64,000 nt of DNA, taken from assembly GCA_002728755.1 (NCBI GenBank), contig PBVT01000016.1, positions 1 through 64,000 on the forward strand, in the 5' to 3' direction. The translations under genes were made by a program, and so were the position numbers. This DNA is from Myxococcales bacterium. GTDB lineage: Bacteria > Myxococcota_A > UBA9042 > UBA3505. Shown piece by piece: positions 24,110 through 43,261 of the stretch. The notes under the pieces were generated by a model. The model had not been told where the DNA came from. It made no database searches and was given only the letters and a program-made list of their open reading frames with translations. The first letter of the stretch is position 1. Each line of letters opens with the position of its first letter.

Positions 24110-27100
24110 ATGCATCGTCGGACATCGTTTTTTTCGCTCCCCGGTTTCTGTACTTTCACCCCATGGAAATGCATACTGAGTAAGCATTTGAACGGGAGTC
24201 GAATCACCTTGAATCACAAGGGGTTAACGGTAACCCTCACGCTGTTTCTATTACTGATCATCGGAGCCTGCTCCGGCGGTGATGGTACCAGTGCGGGTGA
24301 TGTTTTGGGTAAAACCGATGCAGGGGTCCCCGATACCCCCTCCCAATCCGACGCCGACGGCATAGGAAATCCCGTCGACAGCGGCCCAGATACAAAGACC
24401 AATTCGGACAGTCAGACAGACGTTCCGAGTACAGCCGATATCGACGTCTCGGATACACAGGGGGACTGCCCCCCCGGAGCGGGTTGCTTTGGCCAATCCT
24501 GTGAATCGACAGGAGATTGTCAGTCCGGTCTCTGTGTTCCCTTCCTGGGGGATACTGTCTGTAGTGATTTTTGTGATGGTACCTGCCCAGAAGGTTGGGC
24601 CTGTAGTCCCATCGAGACGGGTGGCTCCGATGTCATCTTCGCGTGCGTATCGCGCTTTACCCATTTATGCCTGCCATGCACGACCTCTTCGGATTGCTCT
24701 ACCGGTGATAATGAAAACGTCTGCATCCCCTACGCAGACAAGGGCTCCTTCTGCGGCGCGTCCTGTTCCGAGGAGATCCCCTGTCTGGACGGCTATATGT
24801 GTGAAGAGATCGCCGACGTGGATGGGAATATCAGTTCACAATGTGTCGCCATCGGCAGTGAGTGCTCTTGCGCGACCAAGGCGGTTGAGTTGGGCCTGTC
24901 CACCGTCTGCTACATCAATAATGTGCATGGAACCTGTTCGGGACAGCGCGTTTGCTCTCCATCTGGGTTGACCGAATGCGATGCGAAGGTTCCCGCTGCT
25001 GAAATCTGCAATCTCGAGGACGACAACTGCGACGGAGAGATCGACAACAACATCTGTGACGACGAGAACGAATGTACGGAGGATATCTGCGACCCCTCGG
25101 CGGGCTGTCAGTATATTCCGCTCGATGGCACCCCTTGCGATGACGGAAACGCCTGCAGCTTTGGAGATCAATGTGTCGAGGGGGCCTGCTCCGGCTTTGA
25201 GACCTTCTGTAACGATGACAACCCCTGCACCGAGGATATCTGCAGTGAAAACCAGGGCTGTATCTACGAACCCCTGGATGGATTCTGCGAGGATGGCGAC
25301 GATTGTACCCTCGGTGATCATTGCGAGGGTGGGACCTGTATCAGCGGCATAAGCATCACGTGCGACGATCATAACGAGTGCACGGACGACCTCTGTGACC
25401 CACAGTCTGGCTGTTCCTATGTGCCTATCGAGAGCCTCTGCGACGATGGTAATGCCTGCACGGAGGGCGATCGCTGCCTATTCGGTCAATGCACCCCCCT
25501 GGGGCTCGCGAACTGTGATGACGAAAACGCCTGCACGGACGATAGCTGTGATTCTCTGATCGGCTGCCAACATATAAGCAACAATCTCCCTTGTAACGAC
25601 GGTAACCTCTGCACCCTGGGTGATTATTGCGTAGAGGGCAGCTGTACACCGGCCAACACCTTGATCTGCAATGACTCGAACCCCTGCACAGACGACAGCT
25701 GCTCGCCACAGACCGGTTGTCTTTTCAGCCCAAACACCACGACTTGTAACGACTCCAACGCCTGTACGCTCCATGACAGCTGCGAGAGTGGCATCTGCAT
25801 CTCGTCGGTCGTGGAGAACTGTGATGATTCAAACCCCTGTACCACCGATTGGTGCGACCCGGTTGCCGGCTGCCAACACGCCCCCAATAGCGCGGCCTGT
25901 GACGACGGAAACACGTGCACCATCGGCGATATCTGTTCCGATTCTCTATGTGCCTCGGGTACGACACAGTTGCTATGTAGTGATGGAAACCCCTGCACCG
26001 ATGACATCTGCGATCCCATCGTTGGCTGTACCCATGCAAATAATATTCAGCCCTGTAACGATGGCAACGCCTGTACGACCGGCGACATCTGTTACCAGGG
26101 GGAATGCGGCGGCGCGGGGAACTTGTCCTGCGACGACGGAAACCCCTGCACCCTGGACACCTGCGGCCCCACCACGGGCTGTCTCCACCAGCACGCGCCG
26201 GGCGCGTGCAGTGATGGGAACGCCTGTACGACGGGAGACTCCTGCACAGCCGGAGCCTGCATCACCGACGGTATGCTCGATTGCGACGACGGCAACCCCT
26301 GCACCGACGACTACTGTGATCCGGCAGCGGGCTGTATGCATATAAACAATACGATCCCCTGCAACGATATGAATATATGCACCCTGGGTGATCGCTGTAC
26401 GGATGGTCTCTGTGTCGGTCCGGACCCGCAGGTATGCGACGACGACAACCCCTGTACCGACGACAGCTGTGACGCGGATGACGGGTGTGTCTACGCGGAC
26501 AATACGGATCCCTGCGACGATCTTAATTCCTGTACGACCGACGACATATGCACCGATGGAGACTGTCGCGGAGCCGGCTCCCTGAGCTGCGACGATGACA
26601 ACCCCTGCACTCTCGACATCTGCACTCCCGATGGCGGCTGCGCCCATGAGAATGTAGATACGGCCTGTAGTGACGGAGACCCTTGCACCATCAACGACAG
26701 CTGTGTCGCTGGCGCCTGCACGTCGGGTCTCCAATTGGATTGTAGCGATGGAAACGAATGCACATTGGATAGCTGTGATGCCAGCGGGACCTGTTTGTAC
26801 ACACCCACCGAAGGCTCCTGCGACGACGGCAACCCATGTACCGTCGACGAAGTATGTTCCGACGGCGCCTGTGTACAGACCGATGTACTCGATTGCGACG
26901 ACGACAACAGCTGCACGACCGATTTCTGCTCACCCCTGACCGGGTGTCAGTACACCTTCAACACGTCCCCATGTAGCGACGAGAACGCCTGTACCATCGG
27001 TGACACCTGCTCCGAGGGGAGCTGTGTTACCGACCAGGCCCTGGCCTGCGACGACGGCAACCCGTGTACCGACGACGGTTGCAGCCCCGAGACTGGCTGT

Positions 27101-30100
27101 TTTCATATCAACAACACGATCCCATGCAACGACGGAAACGCCTGCACTACCGTAGATATGTGTACCGACGGAACCTGCCAGGGCTCCGTCGCGCCAACCT
27201 GCGATGACGAAAACATCTGCACGGACGACATCTGTGATCCCTCTGTAGGCTGTACCCATAAGGTCAATGATGTTCCCTGTACGGATGGAAACGCGTGCAC
27301 CCTCGGTGACGTCTGTGCCGGTGGGTCGTGCCAGCCGGGAGCGGTCACGGCCTGTGATGATCTGAACCTCTGTACGACAGACAGTTGTGACCCGAGCTCG
27401 GGCTGCCGGTATGTCGCCAACTCTGTCCCCTGCGATGACGGAAGCGCCTGCACCATTGGCGATATCTGTAGTGACGGTACATGCCTGTCGGGCACAACAA
27501 CTCTTTCCTGTGACGATGGCAACCTGTGCACGGATGATGTCTGTTCGGCCGTTACGGGCTGCTCCAACACTCACAACACGGTCCCATGTGACGATGGCAG
27601 CAGTTGTACGGTGAACGACGTCTGCGCAGCGGGTGCGTGTACACCGGGCCCCGCGGTCAACTGCGACGACAGCAACCCCTGCACCGACGACAGCTGCTCC
27701 CCTGGTAGCGGCTGCCAACATACAAATAACAGCGTTCTCTGCGACGATAACAACGCGTGCACCCTTGGCGACCAATGCATAAATGGCAGCTGCTCGTTCA
27801 CCTCGGTTCCGGATTGCGACGATGGAAACCTCTGTACCACGGACAGCTGCGACAGCGTGGCGGGCTGTCAGCACCCACAGAACACGGTGGCCTGTAGTGA
27901 CGGAGATGTATGTACCACCTCCGATGCCTGTGTCGCAGGAAGCTGTTCGGGTGGCCCGCTTATGAGCTGCGACGATGACAACCCATGCACCACCGACAGC
28001 TGTGATCCCACCCTGGGTTGTATCCATGAGGCCAACACCCTGCCCTGTGACGATGGCAACCATTGCACGACCAACGACGTCTGCTCGGGTGGGACCTGTG
28101 GCAGCAGCACCTTCCCGGACTGCAACGACGGCAACGCTTGTACTACAGACTGGTGTGAGCCCGACGACGGCTGTACCTATGCCAACAACAGCCTCCCATG
28201 CAGTGACGACGACGCCTGTACATTAGAAGACGCTTGTTTGAACGGTACCTGCATCGCTGGTTCCACCGTCGACTGTGATGATGGAAACCCCTGTACCGAC
28301 GACACCTGCGACCCGGATGTGGGCTGTGTTCATACCGCCAACACGGCCTCCTGTGATGACGGGAACGCCTGTACGCTCGATGATGTCTGCTTGAATAAAG
28401 GATGCGTCGCGGGAGACACCGTAAAAGACTGCGACGACAGCAACGGCTGCACCGACGACACCTGCGACCCAGCCCTGGGCTGTGTCCAGACCGACAATAC
28501 CATCGCCTGTAGTGACGGCGACCCCTGCACAATGGGTGACACCTGTTCGGGGGGCGTATGCAGCCATACCAGCACCCAGAATTGTGACGACGGGAACCCC
28601 TGTACCGACGACACCTGCGATCCGGTCGATGGCTGCACGTATACGAAGAATACGGTCGCCTGCGACGATCAGAACGAATGCACCCTCGACGACATATGTG
28701 ACGATGGGAATTGCGCCGGTTCCACCATGCGTGATTGTGACGACGACAACATCTGCACGACCGATGCGTGCGATCCCCTATCCGGTTGTACCAACGTCTT
28801 CAACACCATCCCCTGCTCCGATGCAGACGCCTGTACTACGGGCGACAGCTGCTCCGGAGGCTCCTGCACAACAAGCGGGGTTCTGGATTGTGACGACAGC
28901 AACCCATGCACCGACGACTCCTGCGATCCCGATGTGGGCTGTATCCATGTGTTCAACACAAACGCCTGTAACGACAACAACGACTGCACCAGCGGGGATG
29001 TCTGCTCCGAAGGCACATGCCTGGGGGCTGGCTCTCTGGATTGTGACGACGGAAACGACTGTACCCTGGACATCTGCGATATAGACGGTGGATGCAGCCA
29101 TGAAGATTTGACCGGCCCCTGCAGTGATGACGATCCATGCACCTTGAACGACACCTGTGTCGATGGCCTCTGCGTCTCCGGAGAAGAGCCGGATTGCGAC
29201 GATGGGAACGAATGCACGGCGGACTCCTGCAATAGCGATGGTATCTGCGAGCATACGGCGATCACGGGTAGTTGTGACGACGACGACGCCTGTACAGAGA
29301 ACGATGTCTGCACGGGAACCGTCTGTGGTGGAACGACCGTCGATTGCGACGACGATGAGGTCTGCACCACCGACTATTGTCTGCCTGCGTCCGGCTGCCA
29401 ATATGTACAAAACTCGATCGTCTGTGACGACGGTGATGCCTGTACCAGCGGTGATATCTGCTCAGCCGGTGTGTGCGCCGGTCCCGACACCGTAGACTGC
29501 AACGACGACAACCTATGCACGACCGATAGCTGTGATTCGGGTTCGGGCTGTAGCAATATACATAACAGCCTCCCCTGCGACGATGGAAACGCCTGTACGG
29601 AAAACGATAGCTGCGCCAATGGGGCCTGTAGTGACACCACCAGCGTCGATTGTAACGACGATAATGGCTGCACCACCGACACCTGCGATAGCGTCACGGG
29701 CTGCGCCAATACAAATAACGAATCGCCATGCGATGACGGTGATCTATGTACCCAGGATGACGTCTGCAGCGACGGAGCCTGTGCCGGTGCATCGAGTATG
29801 ACCTGCGTCGACGACAACCTATGCACTAACGACAGCTGTGATCCATTGGTCGGCTGCCAATATCTAGCCAACACCCTCGACTGTGACGACGGCAGTATGT
29901 GTACCGAGAACGATGTATGCTCTGGTGGTGACTGTACGGCCGGCTCAACCGTGAACTGTGACGATGGCGACATCTGCACTGTGGACAGCTGCGATCCGTT
30001 GGAGGGTTGCTCAAACATCGCCTCCTCTCCCTGTTGTGGTAACGAAACGGTCGAAGCGACCGAAGACTGTGACGACGGCAACACCATCGATGGCGATGGT

Positions 30101-30583
30101 TGTAGTTCCAGCTGTGAATCCGAGATCGTGCTTGTGCCTGGCTTCGTCGGAGAGACCGGTCCCGCCTTCTTTGGTTGGACCCAATGCGAAGGCTATTTCG
30201 ACACGACCGCTGCGTCGGAGCTTCCCAGCGAGTGGGGCGACGACTGTACGGGAGAGGAATACAATATGTTACGCCTGGTATGCGGCTCCGACAGCGATAA
30301 TTACGACTATATCGATATCGATAAAAACGTATTCCGCGAAGGACTCACTGGTTTCAGCGAGCTAGGCCTGGTGGATGACGCCAGCTTCTCCGGATGGACC
30401 AATGTGGTACAAGCGGATGGGGGCCATCCCCATAACGGACTGAGCAAATGGGGTGGCACCTGGGACTGCGGTGCAGGGAACCCCAATCTGGCCATTAAGA
30501 ATTTCTGCACCTACGAAGTCGCCAATTGCTTCGGCCAGGGATTAAGCTCAAGTCGGTACCTATGGGTGTATGTCGCACCGTAA
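24110..30583 (+). CDS. Giant Cys-rich repeat lipoprotein (paralog 1)
   Basis: Lipobox LLLIIGACSGG (a TTG start at 24209 with upstream GGGAG is plausible); MopE-like ICNLEDDNCDGEID; about 33 CDDGNPCTDDSCDPxxGC...CDDGNACTxGDxCxxGxC units; Myxococcus Cys-rich cap CDDGNTIDGDGCSSSC; unique C-terminal domain. Confidence 0.9.
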   Translation: MHRRTSFFSLPGFCTFTPWKCILSKHLNGSRITLNHKGLTVTLTLFLLLIIGACSGGDGTSAGDVLGKTDAGVPDTPSQSDADGIGNPVDSGPDTKTNSDSQTDVPSTADIDVSDTQGDCPPGAGCFGQSCESTGDCQSGLCVPFLGDTVCSDFCDGTCPEGWACSPIETGGSDVIFACVSRFTHLCLPCTTSSDCSTGDNENVCIPYADKGSFCGASCSEEIPCLDGYMCEEIADVDGNISSQCVAIGSECSCATKAVELGLSTVCYINNVHGTCSGQRVCSPSGLTECDAKVPAAEICNLEDDNCDGEIDNNICDDENECTEDICDPSAGCQYIPLDGTPCDDGNACSFGDQCVEGACSGFETFCNDDNPCTEDICSENQGCIYEPLDGFCEDGDDCTLGDHCEGGTCISGISITCDDHNECTDDLCDPQSGCSYVPIESLCDDGNACTEGDRCLFGQCTPLGLANCDDENACTDDSCDSLIGCQHISNNLPCNDGNLCTLGDYCVEGSCTPANTLICNDSNPCTDDSCSPQTGCLFSPNTTTCNDSNACTLHDSCESGICISSVVENCDDSNPCTTDWCDPVAGCQHAPNSAACDDGNTCTIGDICSDSLCASGTTQLLCSDGNPCTDDICDPIVGCTHANNIQPCNDGNACTTGDICYQGECGGAGNLSCDDGNPCTLDTCGPTTGCLHQHAPGACSDGNACTTGDSCTAGACITDGMLDCDDGNPCTDDYCDPAAGCMHINNTIPCNDMNICTLGDRCTDGLCVGPDPQVCDDDNPCTDDSCDADDGCVYADNTDPCDDLNSCTTDDICTDGDCRGAGSLSCDDDNPCTLDICTPDGGCAHENVDTACSDGDPCTINDSCVAGACTSGLQLDCSDGNECTLDSCDASGTCLYTPTEGSCDDGNPCTVDEVCSDGACVQTDVLDCDDDNSCTTDFCSPLTGCQYTFNTSPCSDENACTIGDTCSEGSCVTDQALACDDGNPCTDDGCSPETGCFHINNTIPCNDGNACTTVDMCTDGTCQGSVAPTCDDENICTDDICDPSVGCTHKVNDVPCTDGNACTLGDVCAGGSCQPGAVTACDDLNLCTTDSCDPSSGCRYVANSVPCDDGSACTIGDICSDGTCLSGTTTLSCDDGNLCTDDVCSAVTGCSNTHNTVPCDDGSSCTVNDVCAAGACTPGPAVNCDDSNPCTDDSCSPGSGCQHTNNSVLCDDNNACTLGDQCINGSCSFTSVPDCDDGNLCTTDSCDSVAGCQHPQNTVACSDGDVCTTSDACVAGSCSGGPLMSCDDDNPCTTDSCDPTLGCIHEANTLPCDDGNHCTTNDVCSGGTCGSSTFPDCNDGNACTTDWCEPDDGCTYANNSLPCSDDDACTLEDACLNGTCIAGSTVDCDDGNPCTDDTCDPDVGCVHTANTASCDDGNACTLDDVCLNKGCVAGDTVKDCDDSNGCTDDTCDPALGCVQTDNTIACSDGDPCTMGDTCSGGVCSHTSTQNCDDGNPCTDDTCDPVDGCTYTKNTVACDDQNECTLDDICDDGNCAGSTMRDCDDDNICTTDACDPLSGCTNVFNTIPCSDADACTTGDSCSGGSCTTSGVLDCDDSNPCTDDSCDPDVGCIHVFNTNACNDNNDCTSGDVCSEGTCLGAGSLDCDDGNDCTLDICDIDGGCSHEDLTGPCSDDDPCTLNDTCVDGLCVSGEEPDCDDGNECTADSCNSDGICEHTAITGSCDDDDACTENDVCTGTVCGGTTVDCDDDEVCTTDYCLPASGCQYVQNSIVCDDGDACTSGDICSAGVCAGPDTVDCNDDNLCTTDSCDSGSGCSNIHNSLPCDDGNACTENDSCANGACSDTTSVDCNDDNGCTTDTCDSVTGCANTNNESPCDDGDLCTQDDVCSDGACAGASSMTCVDDNLCTNDSCDPLVGCQYLANTLDCDDGSMCTENDVCSGGDCTAGSTVNCDDGDICTVDSCDPLEGCSNIASSPCCGNETVEATEDCDDGNTIDGDGCSSSCESEIVLVPGFVGETGPAFFGWTQCEGYFDTTAASELPSEWGDDCTGEEYNMLRLVCGSDSDNYDYIDIDKNVFREGLTGFSELGLVDDASFSGWTNVVQADGGHPHNGLSKWGGTWDCGAGNPNLAIKNFCTYEVANCFGQGLSSSRYLWVYVAP
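25048..30122 (+). repeat. Coding tandem repeat, ~51 aa (~153 bp) period, 8 Cys per unit, ~33 units (paralog 1)
   Basis: Units counted by eye in the translation; e.g. LDCDDGNPCTDDYCDPAAGCMHINNTIPCNDMNICTLGDRCTDGLCVGPDP = 51 aa. Confidence 0.88.
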
Positions 30584-30665
30584 AGCAGTAGAAACCCAAG
30601 CCAACTACACTTCCAAAACCTCGAAAGCCACGAACTTGCAAAACAAACCTCATATACTCGTCTGC

Positions 30666-33600
30666 ATGACCCTTGCCGGTCTTGTATTCCTATGGGCCGG
30701 CTGCGGAGGTGATGGTACCAAACCGACGAGTGATCCGGGTGTAGATAGCCAGACCTCCGAGACCTCCCCCACCGACATACAATCGGACGAGACCTCAAGC
30801 CCCACGGAGGTCACCCCGAGCGATATACAAACCGACATCACCGATGCGACCGAAGACGCCAACGCCGAGGTGTTCAGCCTGCAAGACGCCGAAATAACGG
30901 TCACATTCCCCTGTGAATCGGGCGAAGGTTGCTTCGGAGATCTCTGCGAGACGTGGAGCGATTGTGAATCGAGTATCTGTTTGTTTGATCGAGGTGACCG
31001 TCGTTGTTCGGGGACCTGCATTGAGAGCTGCCCGTCTGGCTTCTCTTGCCGTCAGGTGGAGCTGGCGGTGGGCGGCTTCGCGTTCGCCTGTGTGTCCGAT
31101 TTCAGTCATCTCTGCATGCCATGCACGCAGAACTCAGACTGTTCGACGGACTACACACAAAATAGCTGCGCTATCTACGGAACCCAGGGTTATTTCTGCG
31201 GCTCGTCCTGCCAGGACACCACGGAATGTCCCGAGGGCTTTGTCTGCGAACAGATTGAAACGGTCGGTGGGACTTTCGGTGGTCAATGCGTATCCATGAC
31301 CGGGGACTGTGCTTGCTCGGAAACCTCCATTCAACTCGGCTTGAGTACAATCTGCACGGTAAACGGTCCCGATGGACAATGCTCCGCTCCACGCACCTGC
31401 GGCCCCGATGGCATGAACGAATGCCCGGCTCTGACGCCCTCCGATGAGATCTGTAACGGCGTCGACGATAATTGTGATGGGGAAATCGACGAAGGTACCT
31501 GCGACGATGGCAACCCCTGTACAGTGGACACCTGCCTCGGAGCGGGTGGTTGTACACATACCGCAAACGTCGGGCCCTGCTCCGACGGGGATGCCTGCAC
31601 AGACGCCGACATCTGTATAAACGGTGCATGCGTGGGAGAAGCCGTCGTCTGCCAGGATAGCAACCCGTGTACGGATGACAGCTGCGATCCCACCCAGGGC
31701 TGCCTCTTCTCATATAATGGGATTCCCTGTGACGATGAAGACGACTGTACCTTCGGCGATCATTGCGCAGAAGGCGCGTGCCAGGCGGGCAGCACCATCG
31801 TCTGTAACGACAACAACCCCTGTACAGACGATATCTGCGACCCTCTTATCGGCTGTCGCTTCGAGCCCAACGAGGCACCCTGTGATGATAATGACATCTG
31901 CACGGACAGCTCGTATTGCAGCGATAATCGCTGTGTTGGTGCCAGCGTTATTGACTGTAGTGATGGGAATATTTGCACCACAGACAGCTGCGATCCAGTG
32001 GAAGGTTGTAGCCATAGTTTCAATAGCCAACCCTGTGACGATGGCGACCTCTGCACTTTGGGAGATGCCTGCTCCGAAGGTGGTTGTTCATCCGGGTATC
32101 TTGTCTCCTGCAATGACGGAAACTCCTGCACCGACGACAGCTGCGACCCCCTGAACGGCTGCATCTACGATTTCAACGATAGCGACTGTTCCGACGGTAG
32201 TCTTTGCGGCGTCCTGGACCAATGTGTGGAAGGGATCTGTACCGCTCTGGCCCCATTAAATTGCAACGACAACAACCCCTGCACCACCGATTGGTGCGAG
32301 CCCTTGGTTGGCTGCCTCCACGAATTCAACACCGATCCCTGTAACGATGGGAACGCCTGCACACTTGGAGACATCTGTTCGGAAGGGATCTGTACACCAT
32401 CGCCGGTCTTCGACGACTGTAACGACGCTAACCCCTGTACAACCGACAGTTGTGATCCAATCACCGGCTGTAAAAACGAGCCCAATGACAACGCCTGCAC
32501 GGACGGGAACGCCTGCACAACCTTTGATCATTGTGAGGACTCCGCCTGTGTCAGCTCTGGAGCATTGAACTGCAACGACCAGAACGCCTGTACCGACGAT
32601 TCCTGTGATCCCGTCCAGGGCTGCGTGTACACGGCCAACTCGGCATCTTGTAACGATCAGAACGCCTGTACCAGCGGTGACCAATGTGTCGAGGGCATCT
32701 GCGTAAGCACCGGAAATCTCGCCTGTGACGACGGAAACGCCTGCACCAATGACAGTTGTGATCCGACCGAAGGCTGCCAACATCTCCCCAACACGGTCCC
32801 CTGTAGTGATGGCAACCCATGTACCGTGGGCGACGCGTGTATCGCCGGTACTTGTAATTCGGGTCCCGGCCTACTCTGCGACGACGGCAACCCCTGTACC
32901 GACGACAGCTGCACCCCGGCGACGGGCTGCCAGCATACGAACAACACCGACCCCTGTGATGATCATAGCACCTGCACCAGCGACGACACCTGCGTCGAAG
33001 GGGCCTGCATCGGCCAGGGTAGCCTCTTATGCGATGACGGCAACAGCTGCACTCTGGACATCTGTACTGCAGACGGTGGTTGTTCTCACGAAGATATCGA
33101 AGGGAGCTGTAGCGACGGCGACCCCTGCACCGTCAACGACACCTGCGATGCCGGAGTGTGCCAGGCGGGGATTCCCATGGATTGCGACGATAATAACGTC
33201 TGCACGGAAGATCTCTGTACGGCCGAAGGCTCCTGTAGCCACCTTGCAGTCGAGGGAGATTGCGAAGATGGCAACCTCTGCACTACCGGCGATCAATGCG
33301 TCGACGGCCTCTGCATCTCCAACGACGTCAACCCATGCGATGATGGAAATAGCTGCACGACAGACTCGTGCACACCCGAGGGTGGTTGCCAGCATCTCGA
33401 CAACGAGCTCCCCTGCAACGATGGAGACGCCTGCACGATCGGAGACACCTGTAGTGATGGTGTCTGTACTGGCCCTACCCCATTGCTCTGCGACACAGGA
33501 AATAACTGCGTCCTGGCGGGCTGCGATCCGGCCACAGGGTGCACGCAGACGAACCTCTCGGGAGCGTGCGACGACAGCAACCCCTGTACCGTCGACGACA

Positions 33601-36600
33601 AATGTGTCGATGGCTTCTGTATCTCTGGCACGACCGACCTGGACTGTGACGATGGCAACCCCTGTACCGAAGACAGCTGTGATCCGAGCACTGGTTGCGT
33701 CAACACCAATGTGAACAGCTCCTGTGACGATGGCAACGAATGTACGAGTGGGGACGTCTGTTCCGCCGGTATCTGCCAATCGGGAGCCCCCGTCACATGC
33801 AACGACGATGAGCTGTGCACCACCGATTGGTGTGAGCCCGCCGTGGGTTGTATTCACGCGAACAATGTCGTGGCCTGCGACGACGGAAACGCCTGCACCG
33901 TAGGCGACACCTGTCTCGGAGGCTCCTGTGGCACAGGTTCAAGCCTCCTGGACTGTGACGATGGAAATCTATGCACCACCGACAGCTGCGACCCCGATAC
34001 GGGTTGTACCTATGCCTTCAACACCAACCCCTGTGATGACGAGAACATCTGTACCAACAACGACGTCTGTTCCCTTGGTACCTGCCGCCCGGGACCGGAG
34101 ACGGATTGCGACGACTCGAATGTCTGCACCCTCGACTGGTGCGATCCTGTGGACGGCTGTAACCACACCAACACCCCTGGCTCCTGCGACGATGGCAACA
34201 CCTGCACCGTGGGTGACAGCTGTGAGGGTGGCAGCTGTAAAGCGGGTACCAACGAGCTCAACTGCCACGACGGGAAGGTCTGCACTGACGACACCTGTGA
34301 TCAGATCATCGGCTGCGTATTTGTCCCGAATACGGCTCCCTGCACAGATAATGATATTTGCACCGTGGACGATGCATGCGTCGCTGGAAGCTGCGTCTCG
34401 GGGGCGGTCCTGGATTGCGACGACTCGAACAGCTGTACGGACGACACCTGCGACGCCGACATCGGCTGTATCCACACAGATAATACGGCCAGCTGTGACG
34501 ACAACAACCCATGCACCACGTCAGAGACGTGCAGCGATGGCATCTGTACAGGAACCGCGGATGTAGACTGTGACGACGCGAATGCTTGCACTACAGACTC
34601 CTGCCACCCGGTCAGCGGATGTACCCATACCGATAATAGCCTGGCCTGCTCCGACGGCGACGCGTGCACCGTAGGTGACACCTGCACCGATGGGGTTTGC
34701 CAATCCACCGGCAGTTTGAACTGTGACGATGGAAACCCGTGCACAAACGACGTATGCCTGACAGATACGGGCTGTTCCTTTGTGCATAACAGTGAAAGCT
34801 GCGACGACGGAAACGCCTGTACGACTGGCGACATCTGTTCGGCTGGAGCGTGTACCGGACCGAACCCACTGGACTGTGACGACGGCAAGCTCTGTACAAC
34901 CGACTCCTGCGACCTGGATCTCGGTTGCCAACATACGGACAATGATAACCCTTGTACCGATGACAATGTCTGCACCCTGGACGACGTCTGTACGGCCGGC
35001 AGTTGCGAACCGGGAAGCGACAAGGACTGTGATGATTCGAACCCCTGTACCGACGATTCCTGTGATCCGATCTCCGGCTGCATCTATAGTCACAACGCAT
35101 TGGACTGCGATGACGGAAACGCCTGCACCAGTGGAGACGTTTGTGCCGCGGGCACCTGTCAGGCCGGCTCCACAACCCTGGACTGTGATGACGACAACAT
35201 CTGCACAGATGATTCCTGCGATGTAGAGACGGGCTGCAGCCACACCGCAAACACCATCGACTGCACCGACACCGATGTGTGTACCACGGGTGATGTTTGC
35301 CAGGACAAGGTCTGCGCGTCCACGGGCGTACTGGATTGTGATGACTCCAACCCCTGTACAGACGACACCTGTGACCCAGAGATCGGTTGTATTCACACCG
35401 ACAACACCGCGAGCTGTGACGACCAGAATGAGTGCACAACAGGGGATGTTTGTAGTGACGGGTTGTGTACCGCGCCGACAACTCTCGATTGCGACGATGC
35501 CGACGCCTGTACCAGTGACACCTGCGACCCCGACCTGGGCTGCCAGAACGCTGCAAACAACGCACCTTGTAGCGATGACAACGTTTGTACCACGGGCGAT
35601 ATCTGTGCGGCCGGTGTCTGTACCGTCAGTGGTAGCCTCGACTGCGACGACGAAAACGAATGTACAGACGACATCTGCGATCCGGTCCTGGGTTGTATTC
35701 ATACGGACAACACCAACGCCTGCAACGACCAGAACGACTGTACAAGCAACGATGTCTGCAGCGCTGGCCTATGCCAGGGCGATGGAACACTCGATTGCGA
35801 CGACGGTAATATATGTACGATCGACAGCTGTGATATCGACGGCGGTTGTAGCCATACCGCTCGCGAAGGAAGCTGCAGCGACGGAGACCCCTGCACCGTC
35901 GATGACACCTGTGTAGACACGGTCTGCGTCGCAGGGACTGACCGGGATTGTGACGACAGTAACGTCTGCACAACGGACAGTTGCGGAACAGACGGTGAGT
36001 GTATCCATACGGCCAACGCTCTCGTCTGCGATGACGGCAACGCCTGCACCATCGGCGACCATTGCTCCGACTCGGAGTGCGTTGGCACCGGCGCCGCCGA
36101 ATGCGACGACGACGACGTCTGCACCACGGATTCCTGTGATCTGGAGCTGGGTTGTCAGCACAGCGACAACACCCTCTCCTGCAATGACGACAACGTCTGC
36201 ACGACCACAGACACCTGTTCGGGTGGAGCCTGCGTCGGTTCGGGCAGTCTGGCCTGTGACGACTCCAATATATGCACGACGGACACCTGCAACACCGATA
36301 CGGGCTGCGTTCATACAGCCAACAGCTCCCTCTGCAACGATAACGACGCGTGTACGCCCTCCGATATGTGTGTAGACCGGGTCTGTGTCGGCTCGGGCAC
36401 TATCTTATGTGACGATGGGGACGACTGTACGACCGACACCTGTGACTCCACGGATGGTTGCACCTATACCGATAACACCGCGTCCTGCGACGATGGCGAC
36501 GAATGTACCACGGGTGATGTCTGTTCTGGCGGGGATTGTTTATCCGGTACCGCAGATAGTTGCGACGACGGAAACGACTGTACGACCGACACCTGTAACG

Positions 36601-37190
36601 AGACCACGGGCTGTGTGAACGTAAATAACGTTCTCGCCTGTGACGATGGCAACCCATGTACCGATGACGACACCTGTACCGCGGGGGCCTGCCTTGGGCT
36701 CACCCTCAAAGATTGCGATGATGGCAATAGCTGCACCGATGACATCTGCGATCCGGTGACCGATTGCGAGCATGTACATAATAGCGCGCCCTGTGATGAC
36801 GGAAATATCTGTACCATCAACGACCAATGTCTATCGGGAACCTGTTTCGGACTCGCTCCCCTGATCTGTATCGACAACAACAGCTGCACCCACGACAGCT
36901 GCGACCCGACAACGGGCTGTGTCTTCAGCCCCAATGTAAGCACATGTGACGATCAAAACGCCTGTACGACGACTGATGTTTGCGCCGACGGCATCTGTAC
37001 TGGTTCGGGAACCCTGGAGTGCGACGACGACGATATATGCACCTCAGACAGCTGTGATCCGAGCAGTGGATGTTCCTTCACGACCATTACCCTCTGCTGT
37101 GGTAACGGAATAGTCGAAGGCGATGAAGAATGCGACGACGACAACCACACCAGTGGAGATGGTTGTAGTAGCCTCTGCCAATCCGAGTAG
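30666..37190 (+). CDS. Giant Cys-rich repeat lipoprotein (paralog 2)
   Basis: MTLAGLVFLWAGCGGDG lipoprotein signal; ICNGVDDNCDGEIDE motif; about 37 repeat units; ends at CDDDNHTSGDGCSSLCQSE. Confidence 0.9.
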   Translation: MTLAGLVFLWAGCGGDGTKPTSDPGVDSQTSETSPTDIQSDETSSPTEVTPSDIQTDITDATEDANAEVFSLQDAEITVTFPCESGEGCFGDLCETWSDCESSICLFDRGDRRCSGTCIESCPSGFSCRQVELAVGGFAFACVSDFSHLCMPCTQNSDCSTDYTQNSCAIYGTQGYFCGSSCQDTTECPEGFVCEQIETVGGTFGGQCVSMTGDCACSETSIQLGLSTICTVNGPDGQCSAPRTCGPDGMNECPALTPSDEICNGVDDNCDGEIDEGTCDDGNPCTVDTCLGAGGCTHTANVGPCSDGDACTDADICINGACVGEAVVCQDSNPCTDDSCDPTQGCLFSYNGIPCDDEDDCTFGDHCAEGACQAGSTIVCNDNNPCTDDICDPLIGCRFEPNEAPCDDNDICTDSSYCSDNRCVGASVIDCSDGNICTTDSCDPVEGCSHSFNSQPCDDGDLCTLGDACSEGGCSSGYLVSCNDGNSCTDDSCDPLNGCIYDFNDSDCSDGSLCGVLDQCVEGICTALAPLNCNDNNPCTTDWCEPLVGCLHEFNTDPCNDGNACTLGDICSEGICTPSPVFDDCNDANPCTTDSCDPITGCKNEPNDNACTDGNACTTFDHCEDSACVSSGALNCNDQNACTDDSCDPVQGCVYTANSASCNDQNACTSGDQCVEGICVSTGNLACDDGNACTNDSCDPTEGCQHLPNTVPCSDGNPCTVGDACIAGTCNSGPGLLCDDGNPCTDDSCTPATGCQHTNNTDPCDDHSTCTSDDTCVEGACIGQGSLLCDDGNSCTLDICTADGGCSHEDIEGSCSDGDPCTVNDTCDAGVCQAGIPMDCDDNNVCTEDLCTAEGSCSHLAVEGDCEDGNLCTTGDQCVDGLCISNDVNPCDDGNSCTTDSCTPEGGCQHLDNELPCNDGDACTIGDTCSDGVCTGPTPLLCDTGNNCVLAGCDPATGCTQTNLSGACDDSNPCTVDDKCVDGFCISGTTDLDCDDGNPCTEDSCDPSTGCVNTNVNSSCDDGNECTSGDVCSAGICQSGAPVTCNDDELCTTDWCEPAVGCIHANNVVACDDGNACTVGDTCLGGSCGTGSSLLDCDDGNLCTTDSCDPDTGCTYAFNTNPCDDENICTNNDVCSLGTCRPGPETDCDDSNVCTLDWCDPVDGCNHTNTPGSCDDGNTCTVGDSCEGGSCKAGTNELNCHDGKVCTDDTCDQIIGCVFVPNTAPCTDNDICTVDDACVAGSCVSGAVLDCDDSNSCTDDTCDADIGCIHTDNTASCDDNNPCTTSETCSDGICTGTADVDCDDANACTTDSCHPVSGCTHTDNSLACSDGDACTVGDTCTDGVCQSTGSLNCDDGNPCTNDVCLTDTGCSFVHNSESCDDGNACTTGDICSAGACTGPNPLDCDDGKLCTTDSCDLDLGCQHTDNDNPCTDDNVCTLDDVCTAGSCEPGSDKDCDDSNPCTDDSCDPISGCIYSHNALDCDDGNACTSGDVCAAGTCQAGSTTLDCDDDNICTDDSCDVETGCSHTANTIDCTDTDVCTTGDVCQDKVCASTGVLDCDDSNPCTDDTCDPEIGCIHTDNTASCDDQNECTTGDVCSDGLCTAPTTLDCDDADACTSDTCDPDLGCQNAANNAPCSDDNVCTTGDICAAGVCTVSGSLDCDDENECTDDICDPVLGCIHTDNTNACNDQNDCTSNDVCSAGLCQGDGTLDCDDGNICTIDSCDIDGGCSHTAREGSCSDGDPCTVDDTCVDTVCVAGTDRDCDDSNVCTTDSCGTDGECIHTANALVCDDGNACTIGDHCSDSECVGTGAAECDDDDVCTTDSCDLELGCQHSDNTLSCNDDNVCTTTDTCSGGACVGSGSLACDDSNICTTDTCNTDTGCVHTANSSLCNDNDACTPSDMCVDRVCVGSGTILCDDGDDCTTDTCDSTDGCTYTDNTASCDDGDECTTGDVCSGGDCLSGTADSCDDGNDCTTDTCNETTGCVNVNNVLACDDGNPCTDDDTCTAGACLGLTLKDCDDGNSCTDDICDPVTDCEHVHNSAPCDDGNICTINDQCLSGTCFGLAPLICIDNNSCTHDSCDPTTGCVFSPNVSTCDDQNACTTTDVCADGICTGSGTLECDDDDICTSDSCDPSSGCSFTTITLCCGNGIVEGDEECDDDNHTSGDGCSSLCQSE
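31494..37187 (+). repeat. Coding tandem repeat, ~51 aa period, ~37 units (paralog 2)
   Basis: Units counted by eye in the translation; same 8-Cys consensus as paralog 1. Confidence 0.88.
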
Positions 37191-37199
37191 GAAAAGAGA

Positions 37200-40118
37200 T
37201 CAGGGGCAGAAACCCAACGTTTGTGCTTGTTCTACGCACATGGTTACCCAGGGCTCTTCACAGCAGCCATCCTCCGTGGCACAGACCGTGTCCGCAATAT
37301 GGGGATCCTGGCAACCAGGTGTGGCATTGGCCACACAGCAGTCTCCCGGACAGGCGAGCATTGTGAGCCCGTCGAGAACAGCCGTAATCAGGTTCGAGCT
37401 ATTGGTGTTCAGCTGGACGACAAAGCCAACTCCTAGCTGATCGACCAGGTTTTCATAGATGCCCATCTTGGAGCCGGTCACCGCAAAGATTGGGATAACA
37501 CCAGCCGCCAGAATCTTCTCTTTTACCATATTTACGGATGGATAATCTTCGCCCGTTCCCGCCGGGGATCCGTCGAGGACTGCATCTCCATTATTCGGAC
37601 CAGCCGACGCGTGATGCCCTGCCATATGGTAGCTGGCGTCCGTCGTCAGAACCACTACACGCATCGCTCCCGGTCGGAAACCGACTTCATCCGCCCGCAA
37701 TGCAACCTGCATCAAAGCCTCGATCTGGGATTCGGGCTCATCCGAACCACCGCTCGCATCCAGACTATGAACAGCGGCGACAAGAGCCGAACCGGAATCC
37801 GTCAGACTCAGTTCATGACGAAAGACATAGTCGCTCCAGCCACCAAAGGGCGATGTGGGTTTATCAATGAACGAGCCAAGGCCAAAATATGGGTCTACAA
37901 ATCCACCGTCCACGATGGCGTCAACCAGGAACGGCACCACCGTGTTCATGATATTTACGTCGTCATCGAAAGAGCCCGAGAGGTCCTGCAAGATATATAG
38001 ATCCAGCGGATATTCGGCCACCTCTTCCCCCGGAATATTCTCACAGCCATCTTCGAGGCACTCGTCATAGGTGCAACCATCGCCATCGTAACAGAGCGTA
38101 TTGTCCGGTATGCTGCTACAGCCAAATTCGGGGACACAATCATCGATGGTGCAGTCTACCCCATCGTCACAGATCTTATCCGGCCCCGATATACAGACGC
38201 CCTCGTCGCAATAATCGTCGATGGTACAGAGATCGGCGTTATCGCAGGTCTCCCCATCCGGTTTATAGATATCGCATAAGCCCGTAGCCAGATTACAGAC
38301 CGGCTCCACACAGGGGTCTACACCAACACAATCTACGACCTCGCCAGCCGTACACATCCCTTCCTGGCAGGTCTCCGTTCCGTCACAGAGGTTGTTGTTT
38401 GGGCACGGGGTGCCATCTTCTTTCGGAAGATCACAGTCGCCTGTGGCGTCATTGCAGAGAGGTTGTAGACAGGGCATGTCCACCCAGCTGCAATCGATCG
38501 GAAGCGCGTCAGTGCAGACACCGACCTTGCAATACTCCGTACCATCGCAGAGGTCATTATCTGGGCAGAGGGTCCCATCGGGCTTGGGCATATCACAGAG
38601 TCCCGAGTCTGGATTACAAAGATGCTCCAGGCAGGGATCTTCGACCATATTACAGTTCACGGGTAGACCGGAGAGGCATACGCCCCCTTCACAATATTCC
38701 TCCCCATCGCAGAGGTCTTTATCGGCACAAGACGTCCCATCGGGTTTCGGTATTCCGCATTCCCCCGTTTCCGCATCACAGAGTGGTTCGAGGCAGGGAT
38801 TGGTGATGGTACTGCAATCGGGTGGTGTACCGTCTACACAAACCCCACTCATACAGATTTCCGAGCCATCGCAGAGGTTGGCGTCTGGACAGGGCATCCC
38901 GTCAGGAACGGGCAGATCGCATATCCCACTCTCTGGATTACAGGTGTTTCCCGCACAGGGATTGGGGCTATTCGAACAATCCAATGGTTCTCCAAGACAC
39001 TCACCATCGGGCTGACATAGGTCATCATGGGTGCACAGATCTCCGTCATCACATCCACCCGCGAGGGCGATATGCACGCAATCCCCCGTAACCATATCGC
39101 AGGAATCCATGGTGCAGTCTTTGCCATCGTCACATAATTTATCGACGGTTCCCACGCACTCATGGTCAGCCGAACAAATTGACTCAATGCTACAGAGGTC
39201 CTGATCTTCACAGGCGGCACCTTCGGGAAGCCAGGAGACTACGCAGCCCTCACCCGGAACACAGGATGCCGCTCCTGCACATACATCGGGGAGTTCACAT
39301 TCGACCGTCTCACTACCTACACAGGTACCGAGGAAGCAATGGTCTCCCATTGTGCATTCGTTTCCGTCATCACATTGCCCTTCCAGCACCGGCTCATGAA
39401 CCACATCGCCCTTCACGCAAGAGTCCAGGGTACACGGGTTGCCATCGTCCAGGCTCAAGACGACCCCGGGCTGACAGAGTCCGGCCACGCAGTGATCACC
39501 CTCGGTACATAGGTTCTCGCTATACACGCATTGGGTCCCATCCGGCCACGCCTCCGATAGACAGACGGGCTCTTCATCCAGACAGGCACAACTGTTCTGT
39601 GTGCAGTTGTTTTCGTCTTCGCAGTCGTAGTCAAACCCCTGGCATGACACACCGGCTTCATTACAACCCGCCTCCAGGGGATTACAGGCCATACACATAT
39701 CGCTCGAAGTGCAACAGTCGTCATCGTTGCACAGAGTCCCCACCGGCTTGGTTTCACAAGTCAAACCTGTGGCAGGATCACAGACACATACACGGCAGGA
39801 GTCCGTCATAACCGTCATGGGAACGCCGGCTCCACAGCTACCGTCGGAGAGACAGACCTCATCCTGGGTGCACAGATTATGATCATCACAAGGTGCACCG
39901 ATGGAAGCCACACTTACACAGATACCGGCCTCACACTCGTCCTGGGTACAGTCGTTTCCGTCGTCACATAACAACTCTTCGTCACACGGACCGCCCGGCG
40001 GTGATGTCTTCACATCTTCGACCAGTCCCCCACCCATCGTAGAATCACCACATGCCAAAACCATACAAAGAAGGCATAGGCTTATAAGAGTCTTGCTATA
40101 TGAAACCAGTCGAGCCAT
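37200..40118 (-). CDS. Cys-rich lipoprotein with integrin beta I-like (VWA) domain
   Basis: LCMVLACGDS lipobox; Cys-rich modules (PCLEPLCDAETGECGIPKPDGTSCADKDLCDGEEYC...); YPLDLYILQDLSGSFDDDVN...FGLGSFIDKP...RVVVLTTDASYHMAGHH...IPIFAVTGSK...NTNSSNLITAVLDGL. Confidence 0.88.
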   Translation of the reverse strand: MARLVSYSKTLISLCLLCMVLACGDSTMGGGLVEDVKTSPPGGPCDEELLCDDGNDCTQDECEAGICVSVASIGAPCDDHNLCTQDEVCLSDGSCGAGVPMTVMTDSCRVCVCDPATGLTCETKPVGTLCNDDDCCTSSDMCMACNPLEAGCNEAGVSCQGFDYDCEDENNCTQNSCACLDEEPVCLSEAWPDGTQCVYSENLCTEGDHCVAGLCQPGVVLSLDDGNPCTLDSCVKGDVVHEPVLEGQCDDGNECTMGDHCFLGTCVGSETVECELPDVCAGAASCVPGEGCVVSWLPEGAACEDQDLCSIESICSADHECVGTVDKLCDDGKDCTMDSCDMVTGDCVHIALAGGCDDGDLCTHDDLCQPDGECLGEPLDCSNSPNPCAGNTCNPESGICDLPVPDGMPCPDANLCDGSEICMSGVCVDGTPPDCSTITNPCLEPLCDAETGECGIPKPDGTSCADKDLCDGEEYCEGGVCLSGLPVNCNMVEDPCLEHLCNPDSGLCDMPKPDGTLCPDNDLCDGTEYCKVGVCTDALPIDCSWVDMPCLQPLCNDATGDCDLPKEDGTPCPNNNLCDGTETCQEGMCTAGEVVDCVGVDPCVEPVCNLATGLCDIYKPDGETCDNADLCTIDDYCDEGVCISGPDKICDDGVDCTIDDCVPEFGCSSIPDNTLCYDGDGCTYDECLEDGCENIPGEEVAEYPLDLYILQDLSGSFDDDVNIMNTVVPFLVDAIVDGGFVDPYFGLGSFIDKPTSPFGGWSDYVFRHELSLTDSGSALVAAVHSLDASGGSDEPESQIEALMQVALRADEVGFRPGAMRVVVLTTDASYHMAGHHASAGPNNGDAVLDGSPAGTGEDYPSVNMVKEKILAAGVIPIFAVTGSKMGIYENLVDQLGVGFVVQLNTNSSNLITAVLDGLTMLACPGDCCVANATPGCQDPHIADTVCATEDGCCEEPWVTMCVEQAQTLGFCP

Positions 40119-40252: not shown

Positions 40253-41671
40253 CTAACCTGCAATTCGTTGATGCACACCACAACGCTTCGCAAGTCTTCG
40301 AAAGTTGCTTCGGTCCATCTGGGAGAGACGAGCTGCGCTAGAAAGACTACCGCCTGCTTGCTCCATACGATGGCGAACATAAAGGCGTTCAAACTGTTCA
40401 AGGAAACCCGCCCGTGCATCTCCATAGGGCAGATCGAGGAGGTCCTGGTACATGGCTGGTGTCGTCGCAGACGCCTCCCGTTTGACACCATCCGGGAAGT
40501 CCGCAGCTTCAATGATGTCATCCGAGCTCACCGCGACCACGTATTGGATTGCATTACGCAACTCACGGATATTCCCTGGCCAATGATAGGACCGCATAAG
40601 CTCAAGGGCGTCCTCAGCAAAGCTTTTACTGCCATGGGCGTATTCATCCAGAAAAGCCCGTGCTACGACGATCACATCGTCACCTCGAGCCCGCAATGGC
40701 GGCAAGGGGATCTGGAACACGTTGATACGATAGAAGAGGTCTTCTCGGAAACGTCGCTCTGCTACGGCACGCTCCAGGTCCTGGTTTGTCGCGCCGACGA
40801 CACGCACATCCACATTACGGGAAGATACGCCTCCGACTCGCCGCACCTCGCCATTCTCCAGGGCCCGTAACAACTTCGCCTGCAGGGGAGCGCTCATTTC
40901 ACCGATCTCATCTAGGAATAATGTCCCTCCATCGGCGGCCTCCAATAGACCCGCATGATCGGACGTAGCGCCCGTAAACGCACCGCGCACATAACCAAAT
41001 AGTTCACTCTCCAATAGGGATTCCTGCAAGGCGGCACAGTTCACAGCGACAAAAGGACGCCGCGCACGACGGGAACGATTATGGATAGCTCGTGCTATCA
41101 GCTCCTTTCCCGTTCCACTCTCACCCAACACCAAAACCGGGGCATCAGAACCGGCGATATTTTCCACCAATCGGAATACGCGCTGCATTCCAGGTGAAGA
41201 ACCCACCATGCCCTCAAACCGATCCGCACCTTCTCGATCTTCGACCAGAGCTTCGATACGACGGGCCATCTGGTGGCGCTCTGTCGCACGACAGACGGTT
41301 TGCACTAATAATTCAAGGGGATCGACGGGCTTCAGCAAAAAGTGAAACGCCCCCTCCTGCAAGGCCTGAACAGCCGCCTCTACGGTTCCATGACCGGTAA
41401 TTACGATGACCTCGATATCGGGGCGCGTTGTTTTGATCGCTCGCAACAGGTCGAGGCCGGACATTCCCGGCATACGCAGGTCGGTAACGACGACATGTGG
41501 GTCGAAAGCCTCCAGCTTGGCAAGAGCCTCCTCCCCTCGTTCGGCCTCGGCGACCTCAAAGCCCTCCATGCTAAGGAGCCGGCGGGACGCGACCCGCAAG
41601 GCCGGTTCATCATCCACAACGAGGACGCGACAACCGGACAGATCCGGAGCCTGGATTTCCATCGTAGACAT
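40253..41671 (-). CDS. Sigma-54-dependent response regulator (NtrC family)
   Basis: Receiver [11 protein letters not shown]...[19 protein letters not shown]+ [32 protein letters not shown]-terminal HTH. Confidence 0.93.
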
Positions 41672-41680
41672 TTTCCCTCC

Positions 41681-43261
41681 TTAGCGACAGGGGAGGTACA
41701 TTCGAAATTCCGCACCGCCCCCGCGTACATTCGTGGCATCGAGATGCCCTTCATGCTCACTCATAATCCGATAACAGATACTGAGACCCAGCCCTGTCCC
41801 CTTTCCTACGGGTTTGGTTGTAAAGAAGGGGTCGAATACACGGGCTAGCTTTTCTTTGGGTATACCCGGACCGCTATCACGGATCCGTAACACCACCGCA
41901 CGACGCCCAGCTAAACTTCCGCCGGAAATGCGCACTGCCAGAGTACGTTCTCCTTCGACTTCTTCCATCGCCTGCACCGCATTCGTTACAAGATTGAGTA
42001 TCACCTGCTGGATCTGATCCGGATACCCACGAGTCTCTGGAAGGTCTTCGGCCGTTTCGACAGAAACCTTTACATCGGCTTGTCGAATTTGTGCGGCTAC
42101 AAACTCAAAAGTCCGTTCGGACAACTCACGAAGATCGATGGGCTCCAGATCTCCAGGCTGCGACGGACGTGAAAACGAGAGAAGATTTCGAATAATACTC
42201 TTACAGCGCCGCGCGCTGCCCATGATCTCTTCTAGAAACTCTTTGAGATCCGGATCCTGCTCGACCACTTCTTGCCGTAAGGCAAGGTGGCTGAACGATA
42301 GGATGATACCCACCGGGTTGTTCACCTCATGGGCGATCTCTCCCGATAGCTGTCCAAGAGCGACCATCTTCTCCGATTGCAGAAGTTGCCGCTCCAGGAG
42401 ACGACGCTCCGTGATATCCTGGTACATCACTACATAGCTCGGGTCATCATCATCCCCTTCATTGAAGCGATAGCCGCTGACCTCAAATAAACGGTCGCTA
42501 CGAGCGTCGTCTACTTCTCCCAATCCGTGGGGTTTACCAGTCCGCAGTTCGACTAGAGGGCAGTTCTCACAGGGCTCCGATCGACCAAACATAATCTCAT
42601 GGCAGGTAGAGCCGGGGACATCTCGAATATCGCTCCCCGTGACACGGGCGTAGGCAACATTGGCTCGTTGTGTGCGGTGGCCATCCGTTACAATCTGTAG
42701 AGGATGATCGAAAACATCAAAGGTCCTCTCCCATTCCCGTTTGGCTCGCTCCAACAACGCGGTGCGATCGGCGACAAGCGCCTCCTGCTGCGCGCTACGC
42801 TCCTCTAATTCCACAATCAGGCCATCGCGCTCCTCACGTAGAAACACCTGTTCACGAGCGGAACCTACGGCCGTCACAAAAGCCTCTACCTCCCAGGGCT
42901 TGGCCAAGAAGCGATGCACGGTCCCATCGTTCACTGCTTCCTGCAACAGATCCAGGTCGGCAAATGCGCTCACCATAATCCGGTGCACATTCGGAAACCG
43001 CTCGGCTATTTCACGCAGCAGGGTCAGCCCGTCGGTACCTGGCATACGATAATCGGTCACCACGATATCGGGGACCTTCCCATCGTTCAACAAGCCGAGA
43101 GCTTCGTCCCCACTTAATGCCGTTGTTATGTCGTAGGGCTGGTTACGAAGGCTCTGTTTCATCGCCTTCAAGTGGGCGGGCTCATCCTCCACTAGAAGGA
43201 TTTGTATTCTACGAGCACTCGATTCCGCCATCGTTTCTCCTGGAATTCGAAACCACGCCAC
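41681..43261 (-). CDS. Receiver-PAS-histidine kinase hybrid
   Basis: ILLVEDEPAHLKAM...VVTDYRMPGTDG receiver; PAS segment with CHEIMFGRSEPCENCPL; H-box SGEIAHEVNNPVGIIL; HATPase GTGLGLSICYRIM. Confidence 0.92.
   Translation of the reverse strand: MAWFRIPGETMAESSARRIQILLVEDEPAHLKAMKQSLRNQPYDITTALSGDEALGLLNDGKVPDIVVTDYRMPGTDGLTLLREIAERFPNVHRIMVSAFADLDLLQEAVNDGTVHRFLAKPWEVEAFVTAVGSAREQVFLREERDGLIVELEERSAQQEALVADRTALLERAKREWERTFDVFDHPLQIVTDGHRTQRANVAYARVTGSDIRDVPGSTCHEIMFGRSEPCENCPLVELRTGKPHGLGEVDDARSDRLFEVSGYRFNEGDDDDPSYVVMYQDITERRLLERQLLQSEKMVALGQLSGEIAHEVNNPVGIILSFSHLALRQEVVEQDPDLKEFLEEIMGSARRCKSIIRNLLSFSRPSQPGDLEPIDLRELSERTFEFVAAQIRQADVKVSVETAEDLPETRGYPDQIQQVILNLVTNAVQAMEEVEGERTLAVRISGGSLAGRRAVVLRIRDSGPGIPKEKLARVFDPFFTTKPVGKGTGLGLSICYRIMSEHEGHLDATNVRGGGAEFRMYLPCR

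Follow-up and report, generated by a model that had tools for sequence, protein, structure and literature searches.

An integrin beta-I-like head on a cysteine-rich CTDC stalk in a predicted surface lipoprotein of a Myxococcales bacterium

Introduction

Integrin-beta-like proteins have been noted in cyanobacteria (PMC2651865), and a Trichodesmium erythraeum sequence was described as matching over 450 residues of integrin beta (PMC3192720). The literature searched gave no bacterial beta-I domains beyond these two cyanobacterial reports. The SIB proteins of Dictyostelium combine a VWA-type head with a Cys-rich part (PMC9453864).

The window analysed here, a 64,000-nucleotide stretch from a Myxococcales bacterium, encodes a Cys-rich lipoprotein with a beta-I-like domain. 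As such domains are already known in cyanobacteria, the protein is novel in its arrangement and not in its kind. What is new is the occurrence in this phylum, as a lipoprotein and on a Cys-rich CTDC stalk, in an architecture of lipobox, ~650-residue stalk, head and Cys cap. The whole is best explained, with a probability of about 0.6, as an outer-membrane-type lipoprotein bearing a metal-dependent beta-I head on a CTDC stalk, the head having been captured onto a stalk native to the lineage.

Architecture of the lipoprotein

The gene occupies positions 37200..40118 on the minus strand, as do all of its parts given below, and its product of 972 aa, 111 of them Cys, runs from lipobox through Cys-rich stalk and beta-I-like head to a Cys-rich cap. 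Both the ORF list and the translation agree with an earlier note on this DNA, including the peptide quoted there. The signal peptide with its VLAC lipobox, MARLVSYSKTLISLCLLCMVLAC, covers aa 1-23 (40050..40118), and the lipobox claimed in that note can be read directly in the sequence. With regard to the criteria for an outer-membrane lipoprotein, the VLAC lipobox is present, and a lipobox alone is no proof of exposure; the protein is predicted to be lipidated and would probably be surface exposed. For the same reason a periplasm-facing lipoprotein, in which the domain would have a periplasmic protein-protein role, has to be considered. This is quite unlikely, as a disulfide-rich stalk of ~650 residues better suits an extracellular rod and domains related to the head occur in secreted proteins of RTX type.

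The stalk (38043..39986, ~aa 45-692) was recognised by four stretches matching Dicty_CTDC (PF00526, 30.9 bits), all upstream of aa 701, which bears out the claim that Cys-rich modules precede the domain. Cys makes up 14.7% of the first 695 aa, and the stalk found no match among solved structures. The integrin beta-I-like domain follows at 37377..38018 (aa 701-914), as delimited by PF00362 and supported by phmmer against the PDB and by Foldseek. The earlier note had placed it at the C-terminus; it does lie late in the protein, but a Cys-rich tail of 51 aa (37203..37355; ACPGDCCVANATPGC...LGFCP) still follows. This cap has no second strong copy across the genome and no confident fold in the structure model. 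The head is likewise single-copy in its own genome. NCBIfam and PADLOC gave zero matches.

Assignment to the integrin beta family

The domain had been proposed to be much closer to integrin beta than to a generic VWA domain, and the profile scores agree. Integrin_beta (PF00362) matched with 126.7 bits (E 1.7e-36, cut-off 24.8) over profile positions 2-237 of 248, against 15.5 bits for generic VWA (PF00092), which is under its 23.8-bit cut-off. As a control, the other VWA-type matches in 284 genomes of the same phylum, with the window genome and one further genome carrying a strong match left out, reached at most ~42 bits on PF00362. In the phmmer search against the PDB, all of the 60 matches listed were integrin beta or integrin-beta-like chains (best E 4.8e-25). 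A structure model of the domain, built from seven bacterial sequences, retrieved integrin beta chains as all of its best 50 Foldseek matches in the PDB, with E from 3.2e-18. Confidence of this model is high over most of the domain and low in the loop after MIDAS strand C, in the second-insertion loop (pLDDT < 50) and in the C-terminal tail. Residues 701-914 are therefore a member of the integrin beta-I-like family and not a generic VWA domain. Membership of the Dictyostelium SIB group was also considered, and was ruled out by the SIB VWA model PF24909, which scored 16.6 bits with the whole protein and 19.8 with the domain alone, below its cut-off of 27.

Metal sites and insertions

Residues were mapped onto beta3 by alignment, in which the beta2 and beta7 sequences came from database output and those of beta1 and beta3 are taken to be correct. 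The loop DLSGSFDDD (37959..37985, aa 712-720; aligned to beta2, beta3 and beta7) carries the MIDAS and ADMIDAS motifs. The claim of an intact DxSxS and following DD was borne out, since the MIDAS side chains (D712, S714, S716, E796, D827) and the ADMIDAS side chains (D719, D720) are all present. The DEPE motif (37731..37742, aa 793-796) supplies D793 and P795 of the SyMBS and the E796 common to MIDAS and SyMBS. The synergistic site suggested earlier from DxPE is only partly kept: D752, D793 and E796 account for three of the four SyMBS side chains of beta3 (D158, N215, D217, E220) and P795 is also retained, but the N215 position is Gly, as it is in nearly all of the bacterial members aligned.

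Beta-I is distinguished from other VWA domains by two insertions, the first of which is the SDL disulfide loop. The expectation of beta-I-specific insertions and metal sites holds for the second insertion (PNNGDAVLDG...GEDYPS), which is present in shortened form, and for MIDAS and ADMIDAS; it does not hold for the SDL, and the SyMBS is partial. The SDL loop (C177-C184 in beta3) is absent from the window domain and from every bacterial relative aligned. In integrins, an Arg/Lys of the second insertion reaches into the alpha propeller, and the window domain has Ala at this alpha-contact position. Given the missing SDL and this Ala, the domain looks able to work without an alpha subunit. Such a compact, SDL-less and predicted alpha-independent beta-I would be a natural system for the roles of the beta-I metal sites outside and before integrins. 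In the cyanobacterial L058, L060 and L061, the second insertion reads NNGDGVIDPNEDYP, which resembles a degenerate EF-hand calcium loop.

Comparison with integrins and SIB proteins

Like a metazoan integrin beta subunit, the protein has a beta-I domain with MIDAS, ADMIDAS and most of the SyMBS, and a Cys-rich stalk between membrane and head. It differs in lacking the SDL, the alpha-contact Arg/Lys, the hybrid, PSI, I-EGF and beta-tail domains, the transmembrane helix and the cytoplasmic NPxY tail, and its anchor is at the N-terminus, the opposite end of the chain. No Pfam match to PSI, I-EGF or beta-tail domains was obtained in the 972 aa. In the search for a hybrid domain, the beta3 match was restricted to the beta-I part (fragment residues 20-264) and the flanks are Cys-rich modules; the translation ends in the Cys-rich cap without a hydrophobic C-terminal segment. 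The protein is thus not an integrin beta subunit, as it lacks not only the SDL and the Arg/Lys for alpha contact but also the hybrid, PSI, EGF and membrane-tail parts. A VWA-type head together with a Cys-rich part is common to the window protein and the Dictyostelium SIB proteins, whereas the C-terminal membrane anchor and the talin-binding tail of the latter are absent.

Distribution and origin of the head

The beta-I-like domain is a scattered bacterial family. One scan of bacterial and archaeal genomes recovered eight loci in cyanobacteria, alphaproteobacteria, a deltaproteobacterium and acidobacteria, the acidobacterial matches being weak. Strong matches occurred in 12 of 339 cyanobacterial genomes, 3 of 385 alphaproteobacterial genomes and 2 of 284 genomes of the window's phylum, so that this little-studied family is widened beyond cyanobacteria. 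Closer to the host, the head was present in one of 52 genomes of the same class; in the draw of relatives behind this count, none of the 52 other genomes (51 of the same class) had it. Three scans of viral contigs gave no match, nor did phages, while plasmids yielded two weak ones.

Domains related to the head are found in RTX-repeat, PEP-CTERM-like and other proteins of secreted type. The comparison with cyanobacteria rests on other cyanobacterial relatives, the Trichodesmium protein being known by its description (PMC3192720). Like the window domain, these relatives have no SDL, retain the second insertion and in most cases carry Gly at the N215 position. Several of them differ in having hybrid-like flanks, RTX, Calx-beta-like or PEP-CTERM-like contexts and few Cys, where the window protein has a lipobox and CTDC stalk. 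The flanks were indicated by a flanked bacterial profile that aligned with residues 2-338 of the 350-residue beta3 fragment, a score dominated by the beta-I part. Within the window's phylum there is one further strong member, L035 (aa 96-306; coinciding with L002); its MIDAS is partly lost, with E in place of D and G in place of S, and its protein ends in a PEP-CTERM-like sorting tail.

Clear homology to integrin beta raises the question of whether an animal or protist was the donor of the domain, which would then mimic integrin to bind eukaryotic matrix ligands. In the trees, a test proposed in the earlier note, human chains form their own long and well-supported branch, but inner branches are short or unsupported and, with long branches, the window sequence remained unplaced. 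A clade of window and human sequences was not rejected (p-AU 0.5), which speaks for such an acquisition. Against it stand the separate human branch, the lower identity of the window domain to human domains (33-37%) than to bacterial, namely cyanobacterial, ones (up to 54%), and the absence of the SDL and the N215-to-Gly change common to window and bacterial members. These two shared changes tie the window domain to the bacterial members despite the trees, and an animal or protist origin is very unlikely.

Eukaryotic contamination was also rejected. It is unlikely because the GC content of the domain (0.544) fits those of the gene (0.548) and the window (0.56), the ORF 37200-40118 has no introns and the contig consists of 120.9 kb of bacterial genes; the relatives of the domain are bacterial as well.

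In the acidobacterial L037:6504-10055:+, L038 and L065, an FG-GAP propeller lies N-terminal to a domain intermediate between beta-I and VWA in one chain, resembling a fusion of alpha-like and beta-like heads; the AlphaFold model of this arrangement had a pLDDT of 31.

The resident CTDC stalk

CTDC repeats were detected in 23 of 23 sampled relatives, own genome counted, and on many contigs of the own genome, and the CTDC stalk is native to the host lineage as a genome-wide resident module. Twenty CTDC regions were read. Of the 24 Cys-rich ORFs in them, most combine a lipobox that can be read in the sequence with a CTDC stalk and a C-terminal part poor in Cys. About 20 other proteins of the genome carry the stalk with varied C-terminal parts. 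The window protein shares with these residents the N-terminal lipobox (in most), the CTDC stalk and a C-terminal part behind it, and differs as the only one with a beta-I head, the others ending, for example, in FG-GAP_2 or EGF-like domains. L077 has EGF-like repeats as its C-terminal part (Pfam), and the lipoproteins L091 (890-5332:-) and L092 (2076-6383:+) end in FG-GAP_2 propellers with 624.8 and 533.4 bits (Pfam). The lipoproteins of this genome thereby form a 'one stalk, many heads' system, testable as a whole.

In the remaining bacterial proteins with a strong match to beta-I, the stretch that was read contains 0-6 Cys. Since Cys is scarce in these proteins and the stalk is common in relatives and genome, the beta-I head looks foreign on a resident stalk. 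Judged from this distribution, capture of the head onto the native stalk is the most likely course, suggesting that the beta-I domain moves onto unrelated, lineage-specific stalks.

FG-GAP is the repeat type of integrin alpha heads. Pairing of the CTDC-stalked L091 and L092 with the CTDC-stalked beta-I lipoprotein as an integrin-like two-chain receptor of the same cell is extremely unlikely. The FG-GAP proteins of the genome are encoded on contigs other than that of the window.

Proposed function

The protein may serve as a cell-surface, metal-dependent adhesin, the role first suggested for it from its sequence. The lipid anchor would hold a disulfide-rich CTDC rod with the beta-I-like head displayed at its end, where the divalent metal of the MIDAS could take an acidic residue of the ligand, and ADMIDAS and the reduced SyMBS might tune MIDAS binding as in integrins. 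Ligand binding would proceed without an alpha subunit, and matrix, a neighbouring cell, prey or another surface protein are candidate ligands. The head itself would be a beta-I-like domain of bacterial descent, related to those of cyanobacteria and alphaproteobacteria and captured onto the lineage-native stalk.

In a different reading, the head is a metal-dependent assembly module that docks on partners of its own cell surface, such as scaffold or matrix, and not an adhesin for foreign targets. VWA domains often mediate assembly, the relatives of the head are embedded in varied repeat proteins with no common adhesive context, and the many CTDC lipoproteins of the genome are possible partners. 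A single-copy head on a long stalk is, however, how a distal binding tip is usually built, and no conserved partner gene was found, so that an assembly role is a tentative alternative and the less probable of the two. The adhesin remains the preferred reading.

Genomic setting

The two genes directly upstream of the beta-I gene share its strand and encode a sigma-54-type response regulator (40253-41671) and a hybrid histidine kinase (41681-43261). A regulatory link between this pair and the beta-I gene is possible. As the neighbouring gene encodes a sigma-54 activator, a sigma-54 promoter was sought in the intergenic gap before the beta-I gene; none was found there, and window-wide matches were at chance level. 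On the other side, two giant adjacent lipoprotein genes (24110-30583 and 30570-37190) are convergent with the beta-I gene, and their products of 2157 and 2206 aa consist nearly entirely of Dicty_CTDC repeats (407.5 and 429.6 bits).
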